Shown here piece after piece: positions 4,215 to 30,028 of a stretch of DNA of 31,750 nt. Source of the DNA: a virus; the IMG/VR virus record IMGVR_UViG_3300037198_000150, positions 1 to 31,750 of that record, one strand, 5' to 3'. The first letter of the stretch is position 1. Each line of letters starts with the position of its first letter. The translations under genes and the position numbers were made by a program. Below the pieces are notes generated by a model, which was not told the origin of the DNA, searched no databases, and saw only the letters and a list, made by a program, of their open reading frames with translations.

Positions 4215-4484
4215 ATGGCCTACCGCCTGACCCGCTGGCCGATCCTGATCCGCGACAACCCCGCCAAGGCGAAGCGCGAGATCCTCGACGCCGTGACGAT
4301 CGCCGAGGGCACTGTCCGCTACGCCGCCAAGGCGCTCGAGACCCCAGAGAACACCCTGTGGCGCTACATCAAGGTGCTCGGGATACAGCCGGAGATCGAG
4401 GTCATTCGCGCCAGTTCCAAGCCGACCACCACGGGGGTTCCGGCGGGCCCCGCGCTGCAGCCAGACGAAGAGGAGGCCCGCTGA
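4215..4484 (+). CDS. Fis-like helix-turn-helix regulator (89 aa)
   Basis: The start is taken at ATG 4215 (MAYRLTRWPILIRDNP). Residues about 20-60 form a helical region ending in AAKALETPENTLWRYIKVLG, the pattern of the Fis-type HTH (A-x-x-L-x-x-x-x-x-T-L-x-x-x-L-x-x-L-G-I). The Pro/Glu-rich tail is probably disordered. The TGA overlaps the ATG of the sigma-like gene by one base. As a small DNA-binding protein beside the divergent control region, it is a candidate regulator of early or late transcription; the target is unknown. Confidence 0.65.
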   Translation: MAYRLTRWPILIRDNPAKAKREILDAVTIAEGTVRYAAKALETPENTLWRYIKVLGIQPEIEVIRASSKPTTTGVPAGPALQPDEEEAR

Positions 4485-4684
4485 TGCCCGCGACCATCAC
4501 CGACAAGATTCGCCAGGTCGCCGAGAGCGTGGCACGCGGGTACGCTCGGCGCTGCGGTCCCTACGCCGACGTGGCCGACCTCACCCAGGAAGCGTGGGCG
4601 GTATGCCTCTCGGCCACCAAGAACTTCGACGCGATCTACTGGTCCTGGTGGAGAGCCAGGGACATGCACGGGGAGGCACCATGA
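4484..4684 (+). CDS. Mini sigma-70 region 2-like protein (66 aa)
   Basis: ATG at 4484 shares a base with the upstream TGA. The sequence (VARGYARRCGPYADVADLTQ, then EAW...ATKNFDAIYWSWWRARD) follows the order of sigma-70 region 2.1-2.3: an amphipathic helix, a D-L-x-Q-E core-binding motif, an F-D, and an aromatic W-x-W-W-R segment like that used in -10 melting. The protein then stops, so regions 3 and 4 are absent. Possibilities include a minimal sigma-like subunit, a partner of another protein, an anti-host factor, or a decayed sigma gene. The resemblance is seen in the sequence; activity is inference. Confidence 0.55.
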   Translation: MPATITDKIRQVAESVARGYARRCGPYADVADLTQEAWAVCLSATKNFDAIYWSWWRARDMHGEAP

Positions 4685-7682: not shown

Positions 7683-8573
7683 CTACTCCGGTTGCTCCGC
7701 AGGGAGCGGGCGGCCAAGCAGCCGCGCGAGAGGGATATCGATCGGCCGCGGCACCCACTGCCCCATGGGCCGGCCGGCGGCCTCCAGGGCGCGCATGGTG
7801 GCCTGGCCGGGGATGCCGTCCACGGTGAGGCCGGCGCCGTGGTCGGCGTTGAGCTTGGACTGGCGCCGGCCCCAGTGGATGCGGTCCTCGCTGAGGTGGT
7901 ACTGCCAGCCCTCGTAGCCGGCGGCGCGGAGGGCGTCGAAGAAGAAGTCCCCCGGGTCGCCGGCGCCGCGCGTGTCGGTGACGTCGCGATGCCCGACGAC
8001 GCCGAAGAGGTCGCGCCCACCTTCCTCCAGCCGCTTGAGCGGGTGGCCGAGGTAGTACCGGCCCGAGGACGTCGGGAAGCCGCGCTGGACGCCGAAGAGG
8101 GCGGTGAGAACATCGACGAGGAGCACGGCGGCGTCGACCGTGGCCTGCCAGATCGTGCCGTCGGACTCCTGCCAGCACTCGATCCCGATCGAGCGGCCGT
8201 TGACGACGCCAGCGTGGTAGCCGATCGTCCGCTGCAGGTCGGCGAGGCAGGACACTCCGCCATCTCCGTCGATCACAAGCGGCGCGCCGGACTGCAGCGG
8301 GGAACCGGCCCAGAAGGCGGCGGCGGCGGGACCGGCGCCGGCGTGCCGCCCGCCCGGCGCGAGCTTCTGCGCGGCGCTCGGATGCTGCGGGTCGGGGTAG
8401 CCCTTGGTGGTGTGGATGACGATCAGGGTGATCGGCGCGTCGTCGGCGCGTGGCCGGCCGTCGTCGTTGGAGGTGAGGCCGACGCGCAGGGCGAGGGCCG
8501 GGTCGTCGAAGTAGTTGACGATGCGCAGGCCAGGAATCTGGACCTCCGCGCCGCGGATTACGAGGCCGGGCAT
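7683..8573 (-). CDS. N-acetylmuramoyl-L-alanine amidase (endolysin)
   Basis: 296 aa. An Amidase_2/PGRP-type catalytic domain spans about 45-215: IVIHTTKG gives His54, GYHAGVVNGRSIGIE follows the usual core strand, and GVVGHRDV...GAGDPG supplies His195 and Asp207 as the expected zinc ligands. It hydrolyses the bond between N-acetylmuramic acid and L-alanine. Residues about 228-265 (RRQSKLNADHGAGLTVDGIP, then GQATMRALEA) match a C-terminal peptidoglycan-binding_1 repeat. There is no signal peptide, so release would depend on the adjacent holin candidates. It follows the spanin genes in the lysis cassette. Confidence 0.88.
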   Translation of the reverse strand: MPGLVIRGAEVQIPGLRIVNYFDDPALALRVGLTSNDDGRPRADDAPITLIVIHTTKGYPDPQHPSAAQKLAPGGRHAGAGPAAAAFWAGSPLQSGAPLVIDGDGGVSCLADLQRTIGYHAGVVNGRSIGIECWQESDGTIWQATVDAAVLLVDVLTALFGVQRGFPTSSGRYYLGHPLKRLEEGGRDLFGVVGHRDVTDTRGAGDPGDFFFDALRAAGYEGWQYHLSEDRIHWGRRQSKLNADHGAGLTVDGIPGQATMRALEAAGRPMGQWVPRPIDIPLARLLGRPLPAEQPE

Positions 8574-9148: not shown

Positions 9149-9675
9149 GCCTTGGTCGCCGCCTTGTCGCTCGGGAAGAAGAGCTTTTTGATCATCGCGT
9201 AGCCGCCGGCGGCCGTCGCCCCTGAGACGACGCCGCCGATGATCACCCCCGCCGACCACTTGACGTGGCTGACCTCCAGGACCACGAAGGTACCGCAGAT
9301 GCCCGAGAGTAGTGCGAGCAGAGCGCCGCCTCTGTCGGTCTTCAGGAAGGCGATGGGAAGCAGTCGGGCGAGCCACACGGCGAGGCACATGGCGACGAGG
9401 AACGCCAGCAGGTAGGCGCCGCTCGACAGAGCCTTGGCCAGCTTGTCCACCGCACCCGTCGGGTCGGCCGAGGGGTCATAAGGGGTGACCGCCTGGGCGG
9501 GAGCGACGGCCGGCGCGGTGGCCGGCTGGGTCGCGGGCGCTGCGGCGGGGAGCGCGTCCGGGTTGATGGTGTCCGCGGTGGCCGGCGGCGCCGCGCCTCC
9601 CTGCGCGTAGAGCGGGGTGGTCAGGCAGCACAGGGTGAGCGCGACGGTCGCGAGAAGGCAGAATCGTCTGATCAT
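9145..9675 (-). CDS. Holin-like membrane protein with signal peptide (176 aa)
   Basis: Residues 1-25 (IRRFCLLATVALTLCCLTT, then PLYAQ) form a signal peptide with an AxA-like cleavage site. A Pro/Ala-rich segment to about 80 follows, then hydrophobic segments around 88-108, 117-138 and 143-163, and a basic tail (KKLFFPSDKAATK). It sits between another small membrane protein and the spanins, so holin or antiholin function is likely, although a cleaved signal peptide plus Pro-rich linker is atypical for a holin. ATGA overlap with the upstream gene. Confidence 0.6.
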   Translation of the reverse strand: MIRRFCLLATVALTLCCLTTPLYAQGGAAPPATADTINPDALPAAAPATQPATAPAVAPAQAVTPYDPSADPTGAVDKLAKALSSGAYLLAFLVAMCLAVWLARLLPIAFLKTDRGGALLALLSGICGTFVVLEVSHVKWSAGVIIGGVVSGATAAGGYAMIKKLFFPSDKAATKA

Positions 9676-10079
9676 GGGGTATCTCCTCCGGCGTCAGCCG
9701 GGTCGGGTGGAACGGGAAGCCGCGGCACCCGCAGGTGGTCGGCGGTCTTGGCGAGCGTGTCCACGATCCACCATGATCGCTCCTCGAGGACGCTGAGGCG
9801 CTTCTCGTGGTCGGCGACGGTGGCCATGTGAGGGGCGAGTTCGGTGCGGGTCGGGCGGGAGAGGACGGCGGCCACCGCGCCGGTGCCGGCCACGGCGCCC
9901 GAGATGATGATCCCGACGACGGTGCAGGCTACCTTGAGCCGCGACCAGGGTTTGACGTACCTGGTCACCGGCACGCCGGCGCGCGGCGTTTGGAAGCGCC
10001 CGCGGCCCGCCTGCGGGGCGCCCTTGTAGCTCAGCTCGACTGCGATGTGCGGAGGGGTCGGATCGTCCGCGGGGGTCAT
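9672..10079 (-). CDS. Single-TM lysis-cassette protein (135 aa)
   Basis: ATG at 10079, placed exactly as in the two other genes that carry the 43-bp upstream element; this decides the start over an in-frame alternative at 10151. Soluble, Pro-rich residues 1-45 lead to one membrane helix at about 49-73 (VACTVVGIIISGAVAGTGAV). A heptad-like helix (VADHEKRLSVLEERSWWIVD) and a Pro-rich end follow. Topology and neighbours suggest a holin, antiholin or membrane anchor for lysis. No family is recognised with confidence. Confidence 0.6.
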   Translation of the reverse strand: MTPADDPTPPHIAVELSYKGAPQAGRGRFQTPRAGVPVTRYVKPWSRLKVACTVVGIIISGAVAGTGAVAAVLSRPTRTELAPHMATVADHEKRLSVLEERSWWIVDTLAKTADHLRVPRLPVPPDPADAGGDTP

Positions 10080-10122
10080 GCCCACAGAATGCGGCAGGTA
10101 GCGGGGGGCGTGGTAAATCGGG
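10080..10122 (-). promoter_or_regulatory. 43-bp start-associated intergenic element, copy C
   Basis: Fills the whole gap between the TAG at 10123 and the ATG at 10079. On the plus strand it contains ATGCGGCA (10089-10096) and GGTAAA (10112-10117), at the same offsets from the start codon (12 and 35) as in the copies at 23758 and 27023. There is no clear Shine-Dalgarno sequence. Confidence 0.65.
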
Positions 10123-10581
10123 CTAGGCCGGCGGCCAGTCGACGGCGACATAGCCGCCGTAGCAGGCGCCGCCGTTTGACGGGCCGCTCACGCTGAGCAG
10201 ATAGCGGGATGTGGCCACCTGTGTCTCCGCCAGCCCCGTTACCTCGGCGTACTTTGCGCCAGCAGTCCCCGCCGAGGTTGCCGTGCCGACGGTGGTGGTG
10301 GCGCCGGTGGCGAGGTTGATCTTGATCAGCGTGCAGGTGAAGCGGTTGGTGCCGTTGTCTGTGCCGTACACTCGGAAGGCGGTGATCCGGTCGCCGGCCT
10401 TCAGCGGTAGGTCAATGTTCACTGAGGAGTTGGCGATCTGCCCCGTGGCGTTTCCGACGCCGAACGACAGGTTGCGCGAGCCGAACAGGGCGATGATCTC
10501 ATCCTGGATCGCGTTCATGTCGACGCTTTTGACTTGGGCGCCGGCAGCGTAGGTCGTGTTGCGGGAGACGGGCAGGGTCAT
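10123..10581 (-). CDS. Small beta-rich virion protein (152 aa)
   Basis: ATG 10581, 9 bp after AGGAG. Residues 1-35 include a helix typical of phage fibre-associated proteins (VKSVDMNAIQDEIIALFG). The rest is beta-rich with alternating polar and hydrophobic residues (DRITAFRVYG, RFTCTLIKINLATG, RYLLSVSG), like a jelly-roll or receptor-binding tip. It lies directly after the baseplate genes, where tail-fibre proteins are expected. No specific family recognised. Confidence 0.6.
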   Translation of the reverse strand: MTLPVSRNTTYAAGAQVKSVDMNAIQDEIIALFGSRNLSFGVGNATGQIANSSVNIDLPLKAGDRITAFRVYGTDNGTNRFTCTLIKINLATGATTTVGTATSAGTAGAKYAEVTGLAETQVATSRYLLSVSGPSNGGACYGGYVAVDWPPA

Positions 10582-16031: not shown

Positions 16032-16942
16032 CAGCGCGGCGACCTCGGCGCCCGCGGCGCCGGAAGCTTGATTGGAATGCCCACGTCCAGCGCCAGCGGG
16101 TTCGCGATGGAGTTGAGTGCGAGCACCTCGTCATAGCGGCTCGCTGCCTCGCGGGCGCCGCCGTAGGCCTGCAAGAGCGCCGCATGCAGCGGCAGCGGCG
16201 CCGTCGGCGTCATCTCCATTAGGCGAGGGGTAAGCGCCAAGGCGGCCTGCGCCGCCCGGCGCAGACTGGCGACAAGGCCCACGGTCGCGGCGATCAGCGG
16301 GTAGGCGCTCGGGGTGGTCGCCAACTCGGCCTCGTCGGTGAACCGCGCGACCTTGGCGCTAACGGTGCCCAGCCCGGCCGTCACCTCTTGCGCTGTCACG
16401 CCGCCGTTCTGCCATGCCTGCGCCGTGGCCACCGCGTCCGCGCCGACCGAGGTGTCGAGCGGCGCGCCGCCGGCGCCAGCCGCAGCCGCGTCGAGGGTGG
16501 CGGCGCTTGCGGCCACGTCGTCTACGCCCGAGACGGAAGGCGTTCCCGGGCCAGCCTCGAAGACGGCCGGCGCGGCGCGATCCTCGTGGAAAGCGCAGTC
16601 GACGTGCACCGTGTCCCTCGGCTCGGCGGCCGCGCGCACGCGGCAATCGCCCAGGTAGGCGGGAAAGTTGCCGTAGAGCGGATGCCAGAACGACCACGCG
16701 CCACCGGAGTCGCGCAGATCCAGGAACGCGCGCAGCCGCTGCAGGTGATCGGGGCCGGTGAAGACGCACCGCAGGTTGTAGACCCGGGGGTTGCCGCCGG
16801 TGTCCTCGACCGTGCCGCCGTTCTGGTAGGGGCCGACGTGGGTGACCACCGAGCGGCCGGCGTCGTCGTCGAGGTCGACCACGTCGAGCCGGACGTCGCC
16901 CCAGTACGCCTCGAGCATGACGCTCGACCAGGTATCGCTCAC
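16031..16942 (-). CDS. N: Mu gpN-like DNA circularisation/tail protein
   Basis: 303 aa. Residues 1-130 carry the 'DNA circulation' N-terminal domain: ATG..SVMLEAYWGDVRLDVVDLD, RSVVTHVGPYQNGG, VYNLRCVFTGPD and GAWSFWHPLYGNF. The remaining Ala-rich helical region is typical of the family. In Mu-like phages this protein is a tail/baseplate component, despite its name. Placed between the tape measure and the hub, as in Mu. Confidence 0.86.
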   Translation of the reverse strand: MSDTWSSVMLEAYWGDVRLDVVDLDDDAGRSVVTHVGPYQNGGTVEDTGGNPRVYNLRCVFTGPDHLQRLRAFLDLRDSGGAWSFWHPLYGNFPAYLGDCRVRAAAEPRDTVHVDCAFHEDRAAPAVFEAGPGTPSVSGVDDVAASAATLDAAAAGAGGAPLDTSVGADAVATAQAWQNGGVTAQEVTAGLGTVSAKVARFTDEAELATTPSAYPLIAATVGLVASLRRAAQAALALTPRLMEMTPTAPLPLHAALLQAYGGAREAASRYDEVLALNSIANPLALDVGIPIKLPAPRAPRSPR

Positions 16943-18885
16943 GGTCCCCTCCGGTGACTCGGATCGTTGTCGGAGACGGCCGCGATTCCCTCGCCGGCGC
17001 GGACGGCGATCCCGTTCCTCTGCAGCTGGTCGAGCACGCGGGTCAGCGCGGCCACGGCCCCAGTGAAGGCGCCGCCCCCGCCGCCGGCGCCAGCCGATGG
17101 CGCCCCGCCGGCCATCGCCATGGTGCGCGCCAGGCCGGCGGTCACATAGGCATTCAGGCCGGTTTCCAGCTGTCCTTTCAGATTGACGTTAGCGTGGCCC
17201 ATGCTCTTGAACTCGGGGTCTTGCTCCAATGCCGCCTTCAGCTTCTCGACGTGGTAGCTGCGAGTGCCGCTCTTGTCGGCGGTGATTGCCCCGACGTCCT
17301 GCATCTTGCGCACCGCATAGCGGTCGGCGGCGGCCTGCTGCGCTGGCGTCCCGACCTCCTGCATGCGCTCCTTACCGAACTTCCCAAACACGGCGTCCTC
17401 GCGCGCCTTGTTCTCCTTGGTGATGCGCGCGTCGGCGATCTCGAACAGGCCGGCGATCGCAGCGCCGGCGAGGCCGGCGGCATTCCCCAACGGCCCGAGC
17501 GCGCCGGCCGTGGTCAGGGCAGCCGTCGACAGCGTGGCCATCGGGCCACTCCAATCGCGATTCAGATAGCTGCCCACGCCATAGCCCACCGTCGCGCCGA
17601 CCAGTGACCTCCTCACCGAAGAGCCGAAGCCGCCGCCGGCGCCGTGCTTACCGCCCTCGGCACCGCCGAGGAGGCCTTCTGCGCCGCCACCGCCGCCGAA
17701 CTTCATCAAAGCCACGCCGGCAATCGCCAGGCCGGGATTGCTCGCGAGGAACTGGATCGCCCTCGACAGCTTGTCGACGGCGGCGGCGATCATGTCGATC
17801 CGCTCGGGGGTAAACAACTTCGCGATGGACGTCTCCATCCGCTGCTTCGCCTGGTTGATCTTGCCCGTCGCCGTGTCCGCCCATGCCTTCGCATCCGCGC
17901 CGAGCTGATCCGTCCCCATCGCCGACGCGAGCATGCTATCGAATGACGCCTTTCCGGCCTTCGCGAGCTGGATCATCGCGAACACCGGCTCGGGGCGGCC
18001 GAACATCTTGGCGAGCTTGCCCGGGTCGCCCTTTGTCTTCGCCTCGATCTCGAAGAGGACCGTGGACAGGTCACGCAGGTGCCGCACGCCCTTGGCATCG
18101 ACGTCGAAGAGCTTGATCCCGGCGTGCTTCAGCTGCTTCTGCACCGCCGGCTTGAGCAGCGCCGACATCAGGCTCGACACGGCGCCGGCGGCCTCCTCGG
18201 TACTCCCCGTGCCCTTGCGCATCACCTCGAACAGGGCGCCCAGCTCGGCCACGCCCTTCGCCCCCGTGGTGCCGAACATCGAGAACCGGGGCGCCAGGTA
18301 GCCGAGGTGGTCGGCCATCTCGGCGAAGGTCACTCCGCCGCCCCTGCTCTCAGAGTAGAGGCTCGACAGCGCCTGCTTCATGTCGACGACCTCGGTGATC
18401 CCGAACTTCCCACGCAAGGTCGCTGCGGTCGATCCAAGTTGCTCGACGGAGGCCCCACTGACATTCGCGGCATCCCCGAACATCTCCATCATCTCTCGGG
18501 CCTGCCCGACGTCGTGGGTCAGCGACGCGTACTTCTCCGTGCCAGCGAGGAGCAGCTCGGGGTTGACGCCCTTGGCCGTCGCCACCTCTTCGAGCTGGTC
18601 GCGGAACTGGTTGATTCCCGCAGCCGTCATCCCGAACTTGAAGCGCACCTGGTCGAGGTGCGCCTGCAGCTTCAGCGTCTCGTGGCCGATTAGCGCGATC
18701 GCCGCCACCCCGCCGAGACCGGCGATCTCGCTCAAGCCCTCGAAGGCACCGTGGAGGGCATGGCCGACAGAGTGCTTGATATCGCTCGCCCAGGTCTTCA
18801 GCCCCGACTTCGACCGGCCCAGGGCTCGATCGAGCGCCGAGGTATCGGCGCCGATCCGCGCGACCGCTTCTCGGCTTCCGCTCAC
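16939..18885 (-). CDS. Tape measure protein
   Basis: 648 aa from GTG 18885, which overlaps the TGA of the frameshifted chaperone product (GTGA). Residues 1-60 begin like tail tape measures (DTSALDRALGRSKSGLKTW). Conserved text such as AAGINQFRDQLEEVATAKG and the many Ala/Gly-rich helices follow, with hydrophobic segments near 380-400 and 470-495 that may insert into the host membrane. A Gly-rich tract (GGGGGAEGLLGGAEGG) divides the protein. The length suggests a tail near 100 nm if the usual scaling holds. Confidence 0.85.
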   Translation of the reverse strand: MSGSREAVARIGADTSALDRALGRSKSGLKTWASDIKHSVGHALHGAFEGLSEIAGLGGVAAIALIGHETLKLQAHLDQVRFKFGMTAAGINQFRDQLEEVATAKGVNPELLLAGTEKYASLTHDVGQAREMMEMFGDAANVSGASVEQLGSTAATLRGKFGITEVVDMKQALSSLYSESRGGGVTFAEMADHLGYLAPRFSMFGTTGAKGVAELGALFEVMRKGTGSTEEAAGAVSSLMSALLKPAVQKQLKHAGIKLFDVDAKGVRHLRDLSTVLFEIEAKTKGDPGKLAKMFGRPEPVFAMIQLAKAGKASFDSMLASAMGTDQLGADAKAWADTATGKINQAKQRMETSIAKLFTPERIDMIAAAVDKLSRAIQFLASNPGLAIAGVALMKFGGGGGAEGLLGGAEGGKHGAGGGFGSSVRRSLVGATVGYGVGSYLNRDWSGPMATLSTAALTTAGALGPLGNAAGLAGAAIAGLFEIADARITKENKAREDAVFGKFGKERMQEVGTPAQQAAADRYAVRKMQDVGAITADKSGTRSYHVEKLKAALEQDPEFKSMGHANVNLKGQLETGLNAYVTAGLARTMAMAGGAPSAGAGGGGGAFTGAVAALTRVLDQLQRNGIAVRAGEGIAAVSDNDPSHRRGP

Positions 18886-19987: not shown

Positions 19988-21418
19988 CTACTCGAGGATC
20001 AGCTTGTTGATGCCGACGAGCTGGTGCAGCGCCGGCGGGACGCTGGCCGGGATCGCGACGTTGAACCGGCCGAGGTTGACGAGGTCGTGCTCGACGATCA
20101 GCTCGCCCTCGTGCGCCTTCACGTTCTGCAGGCCGCCGTCGTCCTGCATCTTGTAGAGGACGTCGAGGGTGATCGACCGGACGGTTGCTGCAGTCGCCTC
20201 GTTCGCCGGCAGCGGGTTGTCCGGGTTGCGCACGGTCCTCGACCAGCGCGCGTCGACCTGCCAGCACACCTCGTACATCGTGCGCACGACGTGGATGTCG
20301 GCGACCCGGTTGAACGGGTTGCTGGAGGCGTCGGTGGTCTTCGTGGTGACCAGGCGGACGATCTTGACGGCGTCGCCGGCAGCGTTGTTGGTCAGCGGCG
20401 TGACGCCGTAGTCGATCGCGCTCTGCTTCTCGGTCGCCGTCGGCACCGACGCCGCCGGGATCGGGAAGAGGGGCAGCTCGACATCGTCGAAGTGGCGCTT
20501 GTACTCGCTCCCCTCGACGAAGCAGAGCATGGCCGCGGCGTACTCGCCGGGGAGGTTGAGGCCGCCCTCGACCGAGGTCACGACCACGTCCATCTCGTTC
20601 GCCGGCGTTGCGAGACCCTGCGCGGTCGCGAGCGTCCCTGTCTCGGCGAAGTAGGCGACCGACCACTGCTTCGTGCCGGGAAGGGCCTGGGTCGCCAGCC
20701 AGGTCTTCGCGTCGGTGATGGTGTTCGCGTCGTGGTTGGCGAAGGCCACCCCGTGATAGGTCTTGTCGCTCAGGACGTCGAGCGCCGCCGTGCAGTCGTA
20801 GGCGGTGGCGCCCGACACGCCGGCGGCGGCCGTGCAGGTGATCCCCGCCACGTTGGCGTCGATGAGCGGGACCTTGATGTCGTTGCCATTCACGCCGCCC
20901 GAGCGCGCCGTCAGCGTCAGGACGGCGGCGGGCGCCGCCGCGGACACCGGCAGGATCGGGTAGAGCGGCTTGATCGCGGCCAGCGCGTTTGCGGCCACCG
21001 CCGCGGCGAGGTCGCCGACCGCGATGGGGACGCGGATGGTGCGCCCGGCGATGCGGAAGACGAAGTCGCCGGCGGCGGTCGCCGTCCCAGCGAAGGTCAT
21101 CGTGTAGGTGGCCGCGGTCCCGCTGTTGGCGATCGGCTGCGCCCACAGTTGCGGCTGGCGGCCGTACTTCTTCGCCACCGCCATAGAGGCGCGGCACATC
21201 AGCGCGAGCTCGCTGCCGGCGCCGAAGAGGGTGTCCGCACTCGTCTCGTCGAAGACCTGCACCGGCAGAAGCGCGGTCGCGGTCCCCACCGCCGACATCA
21301 TGCCGACGAGCATTCCCCGGCGCACCAGGGCGACGAGGCCGCTGCCGCCGGAGGTGACGTCGATCACCTGGAAGGTGCCCGGCAGGCCGTTGTTTTCGGG
21401 AACTGGGGTCGTGATCAT
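19988..21418 (-). CDS. L: Tail sheath protein (Mu gpL-like)
   Basis: 476 aa. Features of contractile sheath proteins: an N-terminal PGTFQVIDVTSG strand region, KKYGRQPQLWAQPI, a beta-rich insertion domain (about 105-215), and a C-terminal domain with IHVVRTMYEVCWQVDARWSR and VEHDLVNLGRFNVAIPASVP. It drives tail contraction. ATG 21418 overlaps the gp38-like stop (ATGA). Confidence 0.9.
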   Translation of the reverse strand: MITTPVPENNGLPGTFQVIDVTSGGSGLVALVRRGMLVGMMSAVGTATALLPVQVFDETSADTLFGAGSELALMCRASMAVAKKYGRQPQLWAQPIANSGTAATYTMTFAGTATAAGDFVFRIAGRTIRVPIAVGDLAAAVAANALAAIKPLYPILPVSAAAPAAVLTLTARSGGVNGNDIKVPLIDANVAGITCTAAAGVSGATAYDCTAALDVLSDKTYHGVAFANHDANTITDAKTWLATQALPGTKQWSVAYFAETGTLATAQGLATPANEMDVVVTSVEGGLNLPGEYAAAMLCFVEGSEYKRHFDDVELPLFPIPAASVPTATEKQSAIDYGVTPLTNNAAGDAVKIVRLVTTKTTDASSNPFNRVADIHVVRTMYEVCWQVDARWSRTVRNPDNPLPANEATAATVRSITLDVLYKMQDDGGLQNVKAHEGELIVEHDLVNLGRFNVAIPASVPPALHQLVGINKLILE

Positions 21419-21621
21419 GGCTGCTTCGCCTCCTCGATGACGAGCACGAGATCACCGGCGGCGATGCGCCGGCGGTAGAAGGGTTCGTTGGGCACGCGCA
21501 CCGGCGCGTCGGAGTAGATGGCCGTGGCTTCGCGCCCGTCCTCGCCCAGCCGGCGGGGGCCGGGGCGGTAGACGGGGCAGCCGGCGCGCGCGGCGCGCAC
21601 GTAGAGAGTGGTCGACGTCAT
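21415..21621 (-). CDS. Mu gp38-like small tail protein (DUF2635)
   Basis: 68 aa. The order YVRAARAGCPVYRPG, then PFYRRRIAAGDLVLV, matches the short DUF2635 proteins found between gp37 and the sheath in Mu-like phages. Their exact role is unknown. ATGA overlaps on both sides. Confidence 0.78.
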   Translation of the reverse strand: MTSTTLYVRAARAGCPVYRPGPRRLGEDGREATAIYSDAPVRVPNEPFYRRRIAAGDLVLVIEEAKQP

Positions 21622-22220
21622 GTTGGCACTTCCTCGTCGAATGAGACGAGCGGCGTGGGATCATCCCGCGTCTCCTCGTCTTCGGGCAGGTTCGCGTTGC
21701 CGCGCAGATCGGTGAGCAGCACTTCGATCGCCTTCGGCCGCACCACGTCCATCTGCGCCTGGTAGGTGGCGATCCACACACAGAGGTCGGGAGCGTTGAT
21801 CAACGCCTCTTCGGTGAGCGGTTGCAGCGGACCGCACCCGGCCAAGCCGAGGTCGGAGCCGAGCAGGACGTTCTGGATCATCTCCAGCACGTCGTAGATG
21901 CCTGGCTTACCGCCGCTCTCCTCGGTTCCCTGCGTCCTCGCAACGCGGGTGCGCAGATCGCCAGAGGCGATGACGATCTCGATCTCCGCGTTGAGCGTTG
22001 CCCGCTTGCGCTGCAGGTTGAAGTCGGTAAATCGGCCTTGGCCGGTGGCCACCAAGATCGACGGGAACGACCCGCCGAACGCGACACGGAGATCCTCTTC
22101 GCTCTGCAGAGCTTTCGCGATTTCCCCGTTGTACGGCGCGACGCGGCCGCCGTGCATCTTCGCGAGCGGCCCCAGAGCGGCGACGATCGCTTGCTCGAGG
22201 AGAGTGCGTCGGCTCGCCAT
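21618..22220 (-). CDS. Mu gp37-like protein (DUF1834)
   Basis: 200 aa. The N-terminal helix (LLEQAIVAALGPLAKM), the central PSILVATGQGRF and LNAEIEIVIASGDLR strands, and GIYDVLEMIQNVLLGSDLGL agree with the gp37/DUF1834 family of tail terminator-like or connector proteins. Conserved order before gp38 and sheath supports the call. Confidence 0.8.
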   Translation of the reverse strand: MASRRTLLEQAIVAALGPLAKMHGGRVAPYNGEIAKALQSEEDLRVAFGGSFPSILVATGQGRFTDFNLQRKRATLNAEIEIVIASGDLRTRVARTQGTEESGGKPGIYDVLEMIQNVLLGSDLGLAGCGPLQPLTEEALINAPDLCVWIATYQAQMDVVRPKAIEVLLTDLRGNANLPEDEETRDDPTPLVSFDEEVPT

Positions 22221-22780: not shown

Positions 22781-23218
22781 TTACCAGAACCCCTTGAGCG
22801 ACTCGCGCGAGATCCCAACATTCTCGTCGAGCTCGACGATAGCCGGGACCACAGCCGTGCTCTTCGCCGGCACCGGATCGGTGCCGGGTGACACGAGGCC
22901 CTTGGCCAGATCGCGGAGCCAGGTCTCACGCTCGTCGTGGGCGATCTTGTCGGTCTCGGCAATCATCCGGCGCCGCCGCTTGAGCAAGTAAACCGTCTCT
23001 TCCGCGGCGAGGAGTCGGATGCGAGCCGGGACTGGCGCGGCGAACGGTGTGGCGTGGCGACGCTGCGCGTAGCTGTCCACCCAGCCGTCGGCGGCCGACT
23101 GCGCCACGGCAAGGACCGCGGTACCGAGAGTGCCTGTGCCAGCATCGTCGGTCAGCTGGACGAGGGACTCTAGGCCACCCGCGGCCATCTCCAGCTCGGC
23201 TTGGGTTGCGTAGGCCAT
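22781..23218 (-). CDS. Mu gp36-like head-tail connector (DUF1320)
   Basis: 145 aa. MAYATQAELEMAAGG, AVAQSAADGWVDSYAQRR, FAAPVPARIRLLAAEETVYL and AHDERETWLRDLAKG are the hallmark blocks of gp36/DUF1320, a connector subunit below the portal. Stop is adjacent to the gpG-like ATG; start overlaps the gp35-like stop by one base. Confidence 0.87.
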   Translation of the reverse strand: MAYATQAELEMAAGGLESLVQLTDDAGTGTLGTAVLAVAQSAADGWVDSYAQRRHATPFAAPVPARIRLLAAEETVYLLKRRRRMIAETDKIAHDERETWLRDLAKGLVSPGTDPVPAKSTAVVPAIVELDENVGISRESLKGFW

Positions 23219-23757
23219 CAGACCTTCCTGCGGCGCCGACCATGCGAGGGCGCATCGGAAGGTGGCGAGGGCGAAGCCGGCGGGAGAGCTGGCAGTGGCG
23301 GCGTGGACTTGATCCGCGGGCGCGGCGCGCCGCCGAGGAACTCCTCGACGGTCGGGCCGTCGTCGCGCGGGACATAGCCGGCGGCGTACTGCTCAAGCGT
23401 CGCATCATCGACGGGTTGCCGTGGCGGAAGCGCCAGCTCTTCGCCGAAGTCGGTGTCAACCTCGGCAGCCGGCGTCGGCACCGCGGCGACGCTGGGCTCT
23501 GGCACCGGCGCGGAGGGAGCGAGTAGGTCTGCGTCGGCGCGAGCCGGGAATGGGAGAGTTGACGGTGGCTCCTCCATGGAGAAGACGGCCTCGACCAGCA
23601 ATTCGCTCGGCTTGCTCGCGAGGAGCAACGCGATCTGCGCCGCCGTGAACCGCTCGGCGCGGACCTCGCGCACTTCGCGGGTCCAGGTGATGCCGCAGCG
23701 GACGAACCGCCGGCGGCGTGAGCTTATGCGCAGGGCGATCAGCTGGGTCTCGGTCAC
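23218..23757 (-). CDS. Mu gp35/HI1506-like protein with disordered tail
   Basis: 179 aa from GTG 23757, directly after copy B of the 43-bp element. Residues 15-55 (RRRRFVRCGITWTREVREVR, FTAAQIALLLASKPSELLVE) match the short conserved domain of Mu gp35/HI1506-type proteins. The remaining 120 residues are Pro/Ala-rich with an acidic middle and a basic end, probably disordered. The role in the virion is not known. Confidence 0.72.
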   Translation of the reverse strand: MTETQLIALRISSRRRRFVRCGITWTREVREVRAERFTAAQIALLLASKPSELLVEAVFSMEEPPSTLPFPARADADLLAPSAPVPEPSVAAVPTPAAEVDTDFGEELALPPRQPVDDATLEQYAAGYVPRDDGPTVEEFLGGAPRPRIKSTPPLPALPPASPSPPSDAPSHGRRRRKV

Positions 23758-23800
23758 GAGCCCAGCATGCGGCAGCTATCTGAGGGGGTGGTAAAAGCGG
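23758..23800 (-). promoter_or_regulatory. 43-bp start-associated intergenic element, copy B
   Basis: Plus-strand blocks ATGCGGCA (23767-23774) and GGTAAA (23790-23795) lie 12 and 35 bases from the start codon of the gp35-like gene. About 40 of 46 bases, counted from the start codon, match the copy at 27023. It lies within the 74-bp gap after the capsid gene. No Shine-Dalgarno sequence is visible. Confidence 0.7.
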
Positions 23801-23831: not shown

Positions 23832-24767
23832 CTAGGTCGTGGCGTCGCTGCCGGTGATGAGCTGGTAGAAGGCGTAGGCCACGTTGTAGCTGGCGGCCGC
23901 GCCGAACTTCAGCTCTCCGGTCGAGAACGCGTCGTCGCCGGTCACCACGGAGTCGCTCCACACCGGCTCGCGGGTGCCCTTGTAGAGCGGGCGCACCGGC
24001 TTCGACAGGTCGGCCACGAACCACTCGTTACCGGTCGCCGAACGGCCGGTCGGACCGGGGATCGTCTTCGCGTAGATCCACGGGCTGACGTGGAGCTGCA
24101 GACGGTGGTAGTCGCGGTTGGAGCCGCTGTCCACGTACTGCCGCTCGAGCAGGTTGAGACCGTTCGCCTCGTTCGTCGGACCGACGATGAGGTGGGTCGG
24201 GTTGATGCCCAGCGGCACGCCGTCGTCGCGCTTCATCTGCCGCAGGAGCAGGATCGCGGCGTCGAGGGCGCCGGAGTCGTCGAGGGTGTGGTTGAGCAGG
24301 TTGCTGTTGGTGCTCCCGTTGTCGAGCGGGTGGTTGGTCGCGAAGAAGTGCCCGGCGTCGTAGCACTCGCCGAAGTCCGTGGCGCCGAGGAAGCCGCCGA
24401 GCAACGCGTTGACGAGCAGCTCCTCCTGATGCTGGACAAACGCCAGCGCCAGCATGTCCACGCGAGACATGTAGAGGGCGAGCTTGTCGTCGCGGATGTC
24501 GGTCCGGCTGCACCGGATCGAGTCCTCCCACTCCGCGGTCTTCATGGTGAAGTTGTGGCCGCCCAGCTTCTCCAGCTTGCGGGCACCGGTCCACTTCTTC
24601 ACCGCGCCTACGAAGCCCATCCAGTCGAACTCGATGGTCGGCGTCGACATGTCGAACGCCTCGGCGAGCATGGCGACGAACGGGTCGGTCTGGGCGAGGG
24701 CGAGCGCCTTCTGGAAGCGCGCGTCGAAGGTCACCTTGGCAGCTTCGAGCTTCTCTCGATTCAGCAC
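23832..24767 (-). CDS. T: Major capsid protein (Mu gpT-like)
   Basis: 311 aa. WTGARKLEKLGGHNFTMKTA, DIRDDKLALYMSRV, QHQEELLVNALLGGFLG and CYDAGHFFATNHP are characteristic of the Mu-like major head subunit gpT (HK97 fold). The C-terminal PLYKGTREPVWSDSVVTGDD and AAASYNVAYAFYQLITG also fit. It follows the protease/scaffold and decoration genes as in other Mu-like head modules. Confidence 0.92.
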   Translation of the reverse strand: MLNREKLEAAKVTFDARFQKALALAQTDPFVAMLAEAFDMSTPTIEFDWMGFVGAVKKWTGARKLEKLGGHNFTMKTAEWEDSIRCSRTDIRDDKLALYMSRVDMLALAFVQHQEELLVNALLGGFLGATDFGECYDAGHFFATNHPLDNGSTNSNLLNHTLDDSGALDAAILLLRQMKRDDGVPLGINPTHLIVGPTNEANGLNLLERQYVDSGSNRDYHRLQLHVSPWIYAKTIPGPTGRSATGNEWFVADLSKPVRPLYKGTREPVWSDSVVTGDDAFSTGELKFGAAASYNVAYAFYQLITGSDATT

Positions 24768-24778
24768 GGTCGTTCTCC

Positions 24779-25822
24779 TTAGCCCCAGATCCCGAGGGTC
24801 TGGCCGTCGTCGATGGCCGACGTGATGTTGTTCTTCGCCGCGACCAGGTCGGCCTTGACGAGGGTCAGCTCGTCCTTCAGCGTCGAGATGTTGTTCTTCA
24901 ACACGCCGATCGCCGTGTTGGCGAGGTTGGCCTTGGTGGACAGCTCCTTGATCGCGTCGGTGAGGGCGACGATCGCCGTGTTGGTGGAGATCTCCTTGGT
25001 GGCCAGCTCCTTGATCGCGTTCGCGGTCGCGGTGATCGCTCCCTTGATCGCGGTCGCCTGCGCGTCGCTCGGGTGAACGCTGGTGCCGTTCCAGTCCGAG
25101 ATCGTCGGCGTGGTGATGACGGCGATCGTGCCGTCAACCGTCTCGCCGCCGCTGTTGTCGATCAGCGCGCCCGGCGCGGTCACGGCGCCGATCGTGCCAT
25201 CGGCGGTCGTGCCGCCGCTGTTGTCGGTCAGCGCGTCGGGCGCGGTGACCGCGGCCAGCACGGAAGTGCTCGGCGTGCCCCCGCTGTTGTCCGTGATCGT
25301 GTGGCTGGTGATCGCCGCGCAGGTCTTGCTCGCCGTCGAGTAGGTCTGCGTCCACGCCGACTGGATCGGGAAGTCGCTCGCGGAGATCACGATCCGGGTC
25401 GGCGAGATCCAGACCCAGATCTGGCCGTCGTCGTCGATGGCCATGGCCACGCCGGCGACAACGCCGTTGCTGGAGGTGGTCCCGACGGTCTGATCGTCCT
25501 CCACGTAGCAGTTCTTGTGGAGGTCGTCGGCGGTGAGCGGGTGGCTCACCGAGTTGGCCAGCTTCACCATGACGTTGAAGCGGACCTTGACCTTTTTCGC
25601 GCCGTCGCTGTCGGTGTTCGGGCTCACCGACTGCTGCTCGCAAATGCCGTCGACGCTGAGACGCGACGCGGCATCGGCGGCCGGGCGGGCGTAGCCGGAG
25701 GTGTCGCGGAACACCATCCCGCCCTCGTAGATCGTGGTGTTGGCCTTCTGGGCGATCTCGATCACGCCGCCGAGGTCGCCTACCTGCTGCTGCACGGTGT
25801 TCCGGTCCTTCGAGAGAGCCAT
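24779..25822 (-). CDS. Head decoration-like protein with tandem C-terminal repeats
   Basis: 347 aa. Residues 1-160 resemble Mu-like capsid-associated proteins preceding the major head gene (YEGGMVFRDTSGYARPA, LTADDLHKNCYVEDD, DGQIWVWISPTRIV). Then come three tandem units of about 25 residues with the signature DNSGGT...AV-TAP (about 177-245). Next is a helical array with repeats of the type IKEL-TK--- NTAI-ALT (about 255-330), probably a coiled coil. Such appended repeats could project from the capsid. The DNA repeats are diverged, not identical. Confidence 0.7.
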   Translation of the reverse strand: MALSKDRNTVQQQVGDLGGVIEIAQKANTTIYEGGMVFRDTSGYARPAADAASRLSVDGICEQQSVSPNTDSDGAKKVKVRFNVMVKLANSVSHPLTADDLHKNCYVEDDQTVGTTSSNGVVAGVAMAIDDDGQIWVWISPTRIVISASDFPIQSAWTQTYSTASKTCAAITSHTITDNSGGTPSTSVLAAVTAPDALTDNSGGTTADGTIGAVTAPGALIDNSGGETVDGTIAVITTPTISDWNGTSVHPSDAQATAIKGAITATANAIKELATKEISTNTAIVALTDAIKELSTKANLANTAIGVLKNNISTLKDELTLVKADLVAAKNNITSAIDDGQTLGIWG

Positions 25823-25825
25823 GAT

Positions 25826-27022
25826 CTACCTCCCCCCGCGGCGCTTCTTGGCAGCGAGGAACTCGAGGGCGGTCAACCCACCCTGCTTGGCGGCCGAGCG
25901 CTCGGCGTCGGAGAGACTCTCCAGCGCCTGCGTCTCGGTCATCTTCCCGTCGACCGGCGCGCGCGGCGTCGGATCGACGCCAGCGGCCTGCGACGGCGCG
26001 CCCGCCGGCGTCACGCGCGGCAGGGTGGTCACGTACTCCTTCGCGTTCGCGAGTCCCGAGTTGGCCGCCGTCATGCGGATGGCCTTCTCGACCGGGCCAT
26101 CGACGAGCTTGCCGTCGGAGTCGTGGAAGAGCACCGTCTTGCCCTCGCGGCGGGTCTCGTCGATCAGCTGATCGACGGCGGCGGCCTCGGCGGCGCGCGC
26201 GGCGGCGGCGAGCTCACCCTCGGCCTTCTCGGCGCGAGCGAGCGTGCTGGCGTGCGCGGCGCGAAGACTGGCGATCTCGCCCTGCGCCTTCGCGACCTCG
26301 GCGAGGATCGCGTCCTTGGTGGTGTCCTCGGCGAGGCCGAGCGACTTGGCGATGTCCTTCATGTCGGGCTTCTCCTTGGTGAACTCGGCGCGCGCGGCGG
26401 CGAGTGCGGTGCGGATCTCCTCCACCGCGGTCCCCGGCACGGCCGGGATCACCACGGCGGAAGTCTCAACTCCCTCGGCGCTCTGGAAGACGGCTTCGAC
26501 CGTCCGATCCGCGCCATCAACCTTCACGCGATCGCCGGGATAGTGGCTGCACTGCGCCGAGAACATGTCCTTGCCGCATACCGAGCACAGCACCGGGTCC
26601 TGCGAACTCCACGCGATCGAGAAGCGATCGAGCGTGCCATCCAGCGCTGCCTCCACCGCCCACGGCTTCACCAGGTGCAGCGTCTGCCGGAAGACCGGCG
26701 ACCCGCGTACCGAGGACAACTCGCTGCTCACCACCGTTCCACCGCGCGCGAGGAGATCGCGCTCGTGGTCGCGCATGAACGGCGCACCGGTATAGCTGGC
26801 GGCGAGAGTAGGTAGCACTTTGTCGGCGAAGCGGGTGAAGTTGCGGTTGGGCTTGGTCGGATGCTGGCGGAAGACAAGGGCGTCAACCTCGAGCTCCATC
26901 GGCTCGCCGGCGCGTACGCGGGCGAGCAGTGCCTTGCGATTGTCCTCGGCAAGCGCTTGGCCTCCGGTGCGGAGTTCGAAGATCTCGCCATCGGAGCAGA
27001 GCGTGCTGGGGATCGGCTTCAC
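25826..27022 (-). CDS. I: Prohead protease-scaffold fusion (Mu gpI/Z-like)
   Basis: 398 aa from GTG 27022; an upstream TTG at 27040 is in frame but the GTG sits at the same place as in the two other genes with the 43-bp element. Residues about 40-160 are protease-like (FTRFADKVLPTLAASYTGAP, FMRDHERD, SVRGSPVFRQTLHL, LDRFSIAW). CSVCGKD...CSHYPG then looks like a zinc-binding insert often seen in phage maturation proteases. From about 200 a long coiled coil forms the scaffold. The C-terminus (ESLSDAERSAAKQGGLTALE) resembles capsid-binding ends of gpI. Confidence 0.85.
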   Translation of the reverse strand: MKPIPSTLCSDGEIFELRTGGQALAEDNRKALLARVRAGEPMELEVDALVFRQHPTKPNRNFTRFADKVLPTLAASYTGAPFMRDHERDLLARGGTVVSSELSSVRGSPVFRQTLHLVKPWAVEAALDGTLDRFSIAWSSQDPVLCSVCGKDMFSAQCSHYPGDRVKVDGADRTVEAVFQSAEGVETSAVVIPAVPGTAVEEIRTALAAARAEFTKEKPDMKDIAKSLGLAEDTTKDAILAEVAKAQGEIASLRAAHASTLARAEKAEGELAAAARAAEAAAVDQLIDETRREGKTVLFHDSDGKLVDGPVEKAIRMTAANSGLANAKEYVTTLPRVTPAGAPSQAAGVDPTPRAPVDGKMTETQALESLSDAERSAAKQGGLTALEFLAAKKRRGGR

Positions 27023-27065
27023 GAGCCCAGCATGCGGCAAGTATTTCGGAGGGTGGTAAAAGCGC
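27023..27065 (-). promoter_or_regulatory. 43-bp start-associated intergenic element, copy A
   Basis: Fills the complete gap between the portal TAG (27066) and the protease GTG (27022). Plus-strand blocks ATGCGGCA (27032-27039) and GGTAAA (27055-27060) lie at offsets 12 and 35 from the start codon. A mini-frame ATG CTG GGC TCG TGA overlaps the GTG start in the minus strand. Confidence 0.7.
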
Positions 27066-28424
27066 CTATGGGACAGATGCCGGGGGCGGCGGCGTGGTCG
27101 GCGCCGAGGGTATGCGCGGTGGGCCGGGTAGCGGGTCGCCCGTCGGCGGCTGGAAGTTGAACTCAGCGCGGAACTGCGCCGGATCGATCGGGCAGCCGAT
27201 CCCGGCCGCCTTGACGTAGAGATCCATGCGCTCCGCCGGGCTCATGGTCTGCGAGATATGGACCTTGAGGCGCGGCGGCCGCGCCGCCAATCTGTTGTAG
27301 GCGACGAACGGCGTGCCAACGTCGGCCTCGAAGCGGCTGGCGAGGCGCGCTTCGTCGGCGACCACCAGCGAGAACCGCGAGGTCTGGTGGATCTCGGCCT
27401 GCGCATAGCTGCCATTGGCCGAGCCCTCGCTGCTCGCAAGCGTCCCGCCGGAGACCAGCTTGGATATCTGCCCGTCGACGAGATCCACGAGTGCGCCCTG
27501 CACGTTGCTGGCGCCGCCGCCAGTCTGCACCGTGTGGATGACCATCTTGCACGCGTCGGAGAAGACCGCGGCGTTGTCTTTGCCGAGGCTACGCACCGCT
27601 TCCTGCAGCACGGCTTTGTCGTTGTCGCTCGCCCCAGCCTGGTACTCGCCGGTGACGTAGGGCAACGCGAACTTCTCGCAGAAGACCACCCAGTCGCGGA
27701 CGGCGAGGCGCTTGAAGAGCGACCACCAAACGAAGGTGCGGCCGAGCCCCGACGTGGCCACTCGCCGGCCAGGCAGGCGGCTGAAGATCCACCGGCCGGG
27801 GACCAACGGCTCGCCGTCGTACATGTTGGCGGCGGTCAGAAGCATCGGCTCGTCGTGGGCCGAGAAGCGGAAGCGCCGCGGTAGAACGTTGCGGAACCAG
27901 ATCGGCACGAGCAATCCGCCGCGCATAGCCCAGTCGACTTCGGTGCCGGCGTAGCCGTACCGAACCACGCCGAGCTGGTGAGCGATCGTCTCCTGGACGT
28001 TCGGCACCGCGCGCAGCGCATCCTCGAGCAAGCGTGCCGCTCGAACATCCGCGGCCGAGTCGCCGCCGGCGAGCACCACCCACTGTTTGCCGGCCACGTC
28101 GTCGCGGCGCTGATCGAGCTGGCTGCGCAGGTGAGCGTCCGTCTCGACCACGTCGTCATAGAGATCGCACTGCCTGGCCGGATAGCCCTGTTCTGCCTCG
28201 ACGTGGATCGCTCCGATGAGCCGCGGTGTCAGGCCTTGAGCCGGGTGTTCGATCCAACGGTCAAAGAGGTCGAAGTCGGTGGCCTGGAAGCTGGCCGCCG
28301 GCGCCGCTGGAAGGCTCTGCGGTCGGTCGATGGAGAGCCGGCGGGGAGGCTCTCCGACGAAGCGGCGGAGACGGTCACGGGCAGCGGAGAGGATGCGGGC
28401 GCGCAGTCGGTCGAACGGGGACAT
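27066..28424 (-). CDS. Portal protein (Mu gp29-like, DUF935)
   Basis: 452 aa. ATG 28424 shares a base with the terminase TGA and lies 5 bp from AAGGAG; a GTG at 28430 is possible. CDLYDDVVETDAHLRSQLDQ, RRDDVAGKQWVVLAGG, FVWWSLFKRLAVRDWVVFCE and KFALPYVTGEY are hallmark blocks of the DUF935 portal family. The C-terminal helical region ends in a Pro-rich tail. It forms the dodecameric DNA channel on which terminase docks. No MuF-type gene follows it, unlike in phage Mu. Confidence 0.9.
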   Translation of the reverse strand: MSPFDRLRARILSAARDRLRRFVGEPPRRLSIDRPQSLPAAPAASFQATDFDLFDRWIEHPAQGLTPRLIGAIHVEAEQGYPARQCDLYDDVVETDAHLRSQLDQRRDDVAGKQWVVLAGGDSAADVRAARLLEDALRAVPNVQETIAHQLGVVRYGYAGTEVDWAMRGGLLVPIWFRNVLPRRFRFSAHDEPMLLTAANMYDGEPLVPGRWIFSRLPGRRVATSGLGRTFVWWSLFKRLAVRDWVVFCEKFALPYVTGEYQAGASDNDKAVLQEAVRSLGKDNAAVFSDACKMVIHTVQTGGGASNVQGALVDLVDGQISKLVSGGTLASSEGSANGSYAQAEIHQTSRFSLVVADEARLASRFEADVGTPFVAYNRLAARPPRLKVHISQTMSPAERMDLYVKAAGIGCPIDPAQFRAEFNFQPPTGDPLPGPPRIPSAPTTPPPPASVP

Positions 28425-30028
28425 CACCACTCCTTCCAGTCGTCGGCGCGGGTCGAACTCCGCAGCCCTTGGTATTCCACCTTACCGGGCGGCGCCCGTC
28501 GTGGGTAAAAGCGGCACATCGGGTAGCTGGCGCCGTCGCAGAGATGCGCGAAGTCGCTCCGCCGATTGGGGAAGCCCTTTCGGTTCTCCCAGTTGGCGAG
28601 CGCGCGGCAGGTCATCGGGCACCGCGTCGGATCGGCGAAGAAGTGCCGCCGGCCGTCGGCGGTCCGCATGCGGCTGTTGGTGATCGCGCAGCGCTCGACG
28701 ATCAGCGGATTGCGCTTCGCGTTGGCGGCCGGCGTGAAGATGTGCCTCCACCCGCGGCGGCGGAAGACGTCGTAGGAGCCGCGCCCTTTCGTGCGCTCGG
28801 CGTCCTGCCATTCACCCGAGGCGTCGGCGACGACAGCGACCTCGTCACCGCGAAGACCTAGGGCCTCGAGGGCGTCAATCAGATCGTCCTCGTCGCCCTG
28901 TTCCACCACGACCTCGTCAACGCACCACACCCCCTCGCGCGGCTCCCACAGGAGCGCTCCATCCTCGCCGACGTGCGGACAGGCATCGAAGGCGTGTTGG
29001 ACCGAGCCAGCCATGTGCGGCGCGAGCTGGAAGTCCGCGCCGACCCACGCCGCGAATGGCCTGCCGAGGTGCCGCCGGGTGAAGACATCCGTGATGTCCC
29101 GCGCCGTCTCGGGCACGGCGACCTCGTTGAACCTCGACGACCAGCAATAGAAGACGGCGTCGCCAACCGGCCGGAACTCGCCGAGCACCTCGCGCGCATA
29201 GGTCTTCTCGTCGACCTCCTCCTCCATGGAGGTCAACGCCTCGGCGACGATATGCGGATTCTTCCGCGGATCGAACTCGAAGACGCGGGTCTGCCGCTGT
29301 CCGGCGCGCCCTTCCTCGTACCACTCCATGACCCATTGGCCAATCGGACGATCGGGCGGGTTCGCCATGCCGATGACGAGGCCGCCAGTATCGACGACAG
29401 CTCCGCGTGCTTGGATGTACGTCTTCTTGTCGAGAAGCTGACACTCATTGAGCAGCACCAGGTGCGCCTCACCCTGCTTCAGCGTGTCCGGCACGAAGCC
29501 GCTAACGAGGTAGATCGCGGTCCCATTGACTGCCCGGAAGCTGAAATCGTCTTCGTACCAGCGCCCCCACTTAGCCGGGAAGAGCCGCTCGAAGTTGCGG
29601 CGGAGCTCCGCACTGCGCCGCTCGGTCGGACTCACCGCCCAGATCACCGCGTCCTGCACCGCTGCGAGAAAGCTGGCACCAAGGAACTGCCCCGTCGTCG
29701 TCTTCCCGCCGCGCCGACCTCCCACGAAGAGGGCGGAGAACTGATCCAGTCCCGCCGGTCGCGGCCAGCCCTTCAGGTAGGCGGGCAACCACTGCGACCA
29801 CCAGCGCGTCGCTTCCGCCTCTCCCGCATGCACCCGCAGAACACGCGCCTTGGACGCCGGCGCCACGTAGGCGTGTTCGCGCATGTCCCAGCGGCCACCA
29901 GTCGAGAGCAGAAGTTCATCGCTGCCTTCCACTCGCAGGTCGACGCGGAGGTCGGTGAAGCGCTCAGAACTTCCCTGCGCCTCCTGGAGGCGGTCCAGCG
30001 ACATCCGCTGTAGATTCGCTCGCGGCAT
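28424..30028 (-). CDS. Terminase large subunit
   Basis: 534 aa. Walker A FVGGRRGGKTTTG at about 101-113; Walker B AHLVLLNE at 188-195 with Asn in place of the usual Asp; nuclease domain with GADFQL (Asp332), VAVVADASGEW (Asp401 or neighbour) and RSDFAHLCDGASYP (Asp498) supplying the metal-binding acidic residues of the RNase H-like fold. It cuts and pumps DNA into the prohead. The start at 30028 overlaps the small-terminase-like gene by 65 bp; an ATG at 30004 is an alternative. Upstream of the portal as in Mu gp28. Confidence 0.92.
   Translation of the reverse strand: MPRANLQRMSLDRLQEAQGSSERFTDLRVDLRVEGSDELLLSTGGRWDMREHAYVAPASKARVLRVHAGEAEATRWWSQWLPAYLKGWPRPAGLDQFSALFVGGRRGGKTTTGQFLGASFLAAVQDAVIWAVSPTERRSAELRRNFERLFPAKWGRWYEDDFSFRAVNGTAIYLVSGFVPDTLKQGEAHLVLLNECQLLDKKTYIQARGAVVDTGGLVIGMANPPDRPIGQWVMEWYEEGRAGQRQTRVFEFDPRKNPHIVAEALTSMEEEVDEKTYAREVLGEFRPVGDAVFYCWSSRFNEVAVPETARDITDVFTRRHLGRPFAAWVGADFQLAPHMAGSVQHAFDACPHVGEDGALLWEPREGVWCVDEVVVEQGDEDDLIDALEALGLRGDEVAVVADASGEWQDAERTKGRGSYDVFRRRGWRHIFTPAANAKRNPLIVERCAITNSRMRTADGRRHFFADPTRCPMTCRALANWENRKGFPNRRSDFAHLCDGASYPMCRFYPRRAPPGKVEYQGLRSSTRADDWKEW

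Follow-up and report, generated by a model that had tools for sequence, protein, structure and literature searches.

Start-codon-flush 43-nt repeats before late genes of a phage with Mu-type head and tail genes: probable late promoters for leaderless mRNAs

This analysis focused on a 43-nt element that occurs three times in the window, whose 31,750 bases make up an entire virus record. All three copies lie on the minus strand, the strand of the late genes, and each abuts a start codon. The element is real and conserved, and chance is excluded as the source of the repeat. The copies are probably phage-specific late promoters that give rise to leaderless mRNAs, a reading that leads because of their placement at module boundaries, the position of one of them at the site of the Mu promoter PI, their promoter-like spacing, and the same geometry in a related phage. 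A phage-specific late promoter with a short leader or none was among the ideas of the original prediction, and is the best supported of them on these grounds; its activity, its start point and the factor that it would need are what we infer. Late promoters that recur along a phage genome are a familiar arrangement, and the new part is an element that is flush with start codons and shared by structural operons.

The three copies (A, B and C; Table 1) are present as predicted, ending at ATG, GTG and GTG, and the fixed spacing of their blocks was borne out: TTTACCAC at -38 to -31 and TGCCGCAT at -17 to -10, with 13 nt between them, are exact and stand at the same positions in all three. From the preceding TAG to the start codon there are exactly 43 nt at copies A and C, an interval that the element fills, as had been claimed, and 74 nt at copy B. 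Copies B and C are identical at 36 of 43 positions, and copy A matches copies C and B at 28 and 31 of 43, respectively. In a repeat search that ignored start codons the element was the first direct-repeat family, and in a pairwise comparison of the 43-nt stretches that precede start codons (all 620 that open an ORF of at least 60 aa), its pairs took ranks 1 to 3 among about 192,000. A profile scan of the genome gave no fourth copy (next score 6.3 vs 57-66 for the three), exact-pattern scans with 16 bases in viral contigs and 23 bases in bacterial genomes returned chance matches or none, and no direct DNA similarity of the window to known phages was found. Past the start codon, copies B and C go on matching, a feature absent from the original prediction, with a 2-nt indel (GTGA[AG]CCGAnnCCCAGC), which indicates conservation of the nucleic acid and not of the peptide in this stretch. 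A conserved N-terminal peptide was rejected because the indel after GTGA shifts the frame between the two copies, and also because protein homology in the relative begins at the codon flush with the element.

Table 1. Positions of the element, its parts and the surrounding genes (window coordinates unless marked L062, the relative G001)
Feature	Position	Strand	Remark
67-aa ORF	4481..4684	+	opposite to late genes; sigma-70 region-2 match, PF04542, 4.8e-4, 20.3 bits (cut-off 24)
Amidase endolysin	7683-8573		farther downstream of copy A
135-aa uncharacterised gene	9672..10079	-	follows copy A
Hairpin TCTGTGGG/CCCGCGGA, copy A	10066..10088	-	round start codon
Copy A	10080..10122	-	between TAG 10123-10125 and ATG 10077-10079; beyond gp48 region, amidase side
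Proposed -10 hexamer CATTCT, copy A	10086..10091	-	inferred
TTTACCAC block, copy A	10110..10117	-	
Tape measure	16939-18885	-	
Sheath	19988-21418	-	
gp37	21618-22220	-	
gp36	22781-23218	-	
179-aa gene	23218..23757	-	follows copy B; not at corresponding place in G001
Inverted repeat GCTGGGCTCG...CGAGACCCAGC, copy B	23742..23766	-	round start codon
Copy B	23758..23800	-	after major capsid gene, flush with GTG 23755-23757; homologue behind G001 capsid gene
Proposed -10 hexamer CATGCT, copy B	23764..23769	-	inferred
TTTACCAC block, copy B	23788..23795	-	
Major capsid protein, Mu gpT-like	23832..24767	-	precedes copy B; PF10124, 1.4e-45
Head maturation protease, Mu gpI-like	25826..27022	-	follows copy C; phrog_328, 4.9e-8; PF10123 below cut-off
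Inverted repeat GCTGGG...CCCAGC, copy C	27005..27031	-	round start codon; accessory
Copy C	27023..27065	-	between portal stop TAG 27066-27068 and protease GTG 27020-27022; homologue at orthologous G001 junction
Proposed -10 hexamer CATGCT, copy C	27029..27034	-	-12 to -7; assignment inferred
TTTACCAC block, copy C	27053..27060	-	-38 to -31; proposed -35-side recognition site
Portal, Mu gp29-like	27066..28430	-	precedes copy C; phrog_113, 7e-70
Large terminase	28424-30028	-	
G001 protease copy	L062:2667-2709		CCGAATTTAACGCCCCTTGTGTCTCCGGGTGTTTCCTTGTCTC then GTG; portal/protease junction
G001 post-capsid copy	L062:5830-5872		CCGAATTTCACGCCCTGTGCCCTTCCAGGTGCAGGGTGGTTTC then GTG; directly behind capsid gene

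Judged by its protein-family matches, the virus is a phage with a contractile tail, and its head and tail genes form a Mu-type module on the minus strand. Besides the genes of Table 1 the module comprises gpN, gpP, gp45, gp46, gp47 and gp48, after which come uncharacterised genes and the amidase. The copies are placed at the portal/protease junction, right behind the capsid gene and, past the baseplate genes, toward the lysis amidase. A scan of bacterial genomes with the terminase, carried out in search of the host, gave no relatives. Tandem repeats of 66 bp (25106-25237) and 63 bp (24904-25029) lie within the gene at 24779-25822, which separates the protease and capsid genes and whose product matches a virion structural protein family (phrog_1731) over its N-terminal 139 residues.

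The closest relative found was IMGVR_UViG_3300032516_000188 (G001), a partial contig of 25 kb, and conservation of the element thus spans two phages with portals only 51% identical (terminase 48% over the part present, sheath 52%, gp36 53%). The original prediction had staked itself on further copies at the start codons of relatives, and it survived, since G001 has two. Both are 43 nt long and flush with GTG start codons, at two of the three junctions occupied in the window, and no other pair of start sites in that contig matches as well. In a blind test on the protease and post-capsid regions of 80 capsid relatives, the G001 pair was recovered at exactly both starts, and the element was found at no locus besides those of G001. 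With the start codon left out, a profile made from the G001 pair alone ranked the window copies 1st, 2nd and 13th of 63,416 positions, and the window profile ranked the G001 copies 1st and 3rd of 50,076. Agreement across the two phages amounted to 132 matches, against 71.7 +/- 10.4 for shuffled sequences, and none of 20,000 shuffles reached as high. Copies are more alike within a phage (28-36 of 43) than between phages (20-24 of 43), as one would predict if each set tracked a trans-acting factor of its own or underwent homogenisation inside its genome. A third copy was looked for in the partial G001 contig and not found, and copy A has no counterpart detected there. Three further phages (L148-L150), with portals 33-42% identical to that of the window over the best segment, lack the element and have portal and protease genes overlapping by 4 nt, indicating that the whole element can be acquired or lost at once. 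Among the phages examined it is present in two only.

What follows the post-capsid copy differs between the two phages. In G001, gp36 comes directly after the element and starts at the element-flush GTG (VAYCTQ..., the GTG being read as M in the alignment), whereas in the window an extra gene of 179 aa stands between copy B and gp36, and gp36 starts at the same residue (MAYATQ...) but from an ATG led by a Shine-Dalgarno (SD) sequence. The 179-aa gene would be either an insertion in the window or a loss in G001, the element staying behind the capsid gene in both cases. Since different genes follow it, the element marks the capsid boundary and not one coding sequence, and this tie to a boundary favours a transcription signal. 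The start codon at copy C is supported by homology, as the protease aligns with that of G001 from residue 1.

Over the five copies of both phages, C-42, TTT at -38 to -36, C-33, C-31, C-29, G-16, G-13, T-7 and C-1 are invariant, and A-35, C-12, A-11, T-10 and C-8 are kept in four, so that conserved positions cluster at -38 to -29 and -16 to -7. The second exact block of the window copies, TGCCGCAT, is not kept in G001. In sigma-70 promoters, counting the transcription start as +1, the -10 hexamer depends most on its bases at -11 and -7. With A-11 in four and T-7 in all five copies, the layout resembles that of a promoter whose +1 would be the first base of the start codon. The upstream block stands where a -35 element or an activator site would, but 3 nt farther upstream than in the classical spacing, the -10-like hexamers are GC-rich and AT-poor, and the spacer from TTTACC to the hexamer is 20 nt vs the usual 16-18. 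A standard sigma-70 promoter scan found none, and a terminator scan gave nothing useful.

The genes behind the element also differ in how their starts are preceded. An SD match of at least 4 nt is present at 33 of the 38 other genes of the two phages, and a GGAG, GAGG, AGGA or AAGG core at none of the five element genes. The claim that these genes have no SD sequence therefore holds for a strong core, but not in full, as both G001 element genes do carry GGTG.

Taken as late promoters, the copies would be used at three transcription-unit boundaries. A phage trans-acting factor, either an activator or an alternative sigma, would together with RNA polymerase read the TTTAMC.CCC block around -38 to -29, the -10-like hexamer CAtnCT at -12 to -7 would also be recognised, and transcription would begin at, or a few bases from, the start codon. 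The protease/capsid, connector/tail and lysis-side genes would then be made from leaderless or near-leaderless mRNAs, with no need of an SD sequence. One possible factor, as a lead only, is the 67-aa ORF at 4481-4684, in which the original prediction had seen a sigma-like protein: a region-2 match is indeed there, but it is weak and sub-threshold, covers 35 residues, and has no counterpart found in the partial relative. It is a tentative and rather doubtful extension that the copies represent a new class of late promoter, in which a factor peculiar to the phage, conceivably a small protein reduced to sigma region 2, acts through the 43-nt element to pin the first transcribed base to the start codon; mRNAs of the head, tail and lysis operons would then be leaderless and those of the other genes SD-led. 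If this were true, late genes could be selected at both transcription and translation. On sequence evidence alone, a Mu-like lineage may run its late programme via leaderless mRNAs. The element also provides a concrete sequence to map, and a route to operon boundaries in uncultured phages.

Control of translation at the RNA level is the first alternative to be weighed; we judge it, and with it the translational enhancer of the original prediction, unlikely. The element would be transcribed within a longer late mRNA, together with a hairpin at the start, and would either offer a binding site to a factor from phage or host or serve SD-independent initiation. The flush position of all five copies, the lack of a strong SD at their genes, and the extension of the repeat into the coding sequence at copies B and C would suit this alternative. 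The strongest point for it would be the hairpins round the start codons of the window copies, a second feature that the original prediction did not include, which are more stable than those at nearly all other gene starts (-11.3, -17.6 and -13.8 kcal/mol over -12 to +25, among the four most stable of 35 starts). Such a hairpin, if part of the mRNA, would hinder leaderless initiation and could point to translational control. However, only copies B and C fold better than shuffled sequences, and modestly so (z -1.7 and -1.3), copy A being no more stable (z +0.69), and G001 has no hairpin at the protease start (-0.3 kcal/mol) and a weak one at the start of gp36 (-5.7 kcal/mol). As it is not kept in the relative, the hairpin is treated as accessory, and was rejected as the main function of the element although it is strong in the window. 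The conserved blocks are, moreover, spaced as in a promoter, and the element keeps its place behind the capsid gene though the genes that follow differ, both of which speak against an action on the mRNA.

A late promoter with the same blocks, but with a start point farther upstream that would yield a short leader of 5-20 nt and not a leaderless mRNA, seems improbable. The GC-rich -10-like sequence would allow more than one start point, and TANYTG at -21 to -16 in the window copies could be another -10, but its A at -20 is not conserved in G001, the supposed leader holds no strong SD, and nothing in this explanation gives a reason for the identical start spacing of five out of five copies. The module-boundary linker, also among the ideas of the original prediction, would be maintained through recombination and do nothing for expression. 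It is not favoured, indeed is very improbable: the copies do stand at functional module boundaries, and phages are mosaic, but exchange-promoting linkers ought to differ very little from phage to phage, and here the identity across phages is about 50%, with a few fixed positions and exact start spacing, and no exact copies occur elsewhere in the viral or bacterial collections.

Several known systems resemble the late promoters proposed here in part. In Mu, the late promoters Plys, PI, PP and Pmom are activated by C (PMC4461284). The Mu annotation places PI at 17977-18043, just before the protease gene I at 18056, and Plys just before lys. As in Mu (PMC4461284), several copies of one type, here putative late promoters, stand at module boundaries, and copy C, in the same putative role, lies directly before the head protease gene, the place of PI. 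Unlike the element, PI and Plys stand clear of the start codons, with annotated ribosome-binding sites after them, and behind the capsid gene Mu has a terminator and no annotated promoter. The likeness of this phage to Mu that was established concerns the head and tail module. No match to a Mor/C homologue (PF08765) was found in the window or in G001, both of which may be incomplete. Classical C-dependent Mu promoters were rejected as an identity for the copies: no Mor/C homologue was found in these two, possibly incomplete, sequences, and the element is not followed by a ribosome-binding site.

Leaderless phage mRNAs are known from Thermus phage phiYS40 (PMC3594737), and the middle and late promoters of P23-45 have an extended -10 and depend less on a standard -35 (PMC7403470). 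The likeness of these to the element is one of proposed outcome, with no known sequence relation, and here there is a long conserved block of 43 nt and an AT-poor -10. Leaderless genes of Deinococcus-Thermus have a -10 motif, TANNNT, next to the ORF and no ribosome-binding site (PMC12340547), and in the window a hexamer, proposed as a -10, likewise stands directly before the start codon with no ribosome-binding site. However, TANNNT marks host promoters, whereas here CAtnCT comes with an upstream block, and that block is common to only a few late genes. The start-associated sequence (SAS) of cluster K mycobacteriophages is 13 nt long (GGGATAGGAGCCC), lies typically 3-7 nt from the start codon, and occurs at many sites (PMC3203893). 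Like SAS and ESAS, the element is a repeat adjoining start codons within one phage group, but it is 43 nt long, flush, found at three sites before structural and late genes, and unrelated in sequence. The original prediction was thus correct in setting it apart by length and sequence, and identity with SAS was rejected on direct reading of the sequences, which differ from GGGATAGGAGCCC (PMC3203893).

Two minor observations concern other parts of these genomes. In three Mu-like phages (L058, L059 and L060) a gap of 129-234 nt stands just before the head protease gene, as at Mu PI, and in L058 this gap comes after an accessory gene cassette; such gaps are a general place to seek late promoters. 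In the window, the replication-initiator gene (483-1325) holds short TCGCGA-rich repeats (CTCGCGAGnnTCTCGCGA) at 927-990 and 1134-1164, which are possibly origin iterons.
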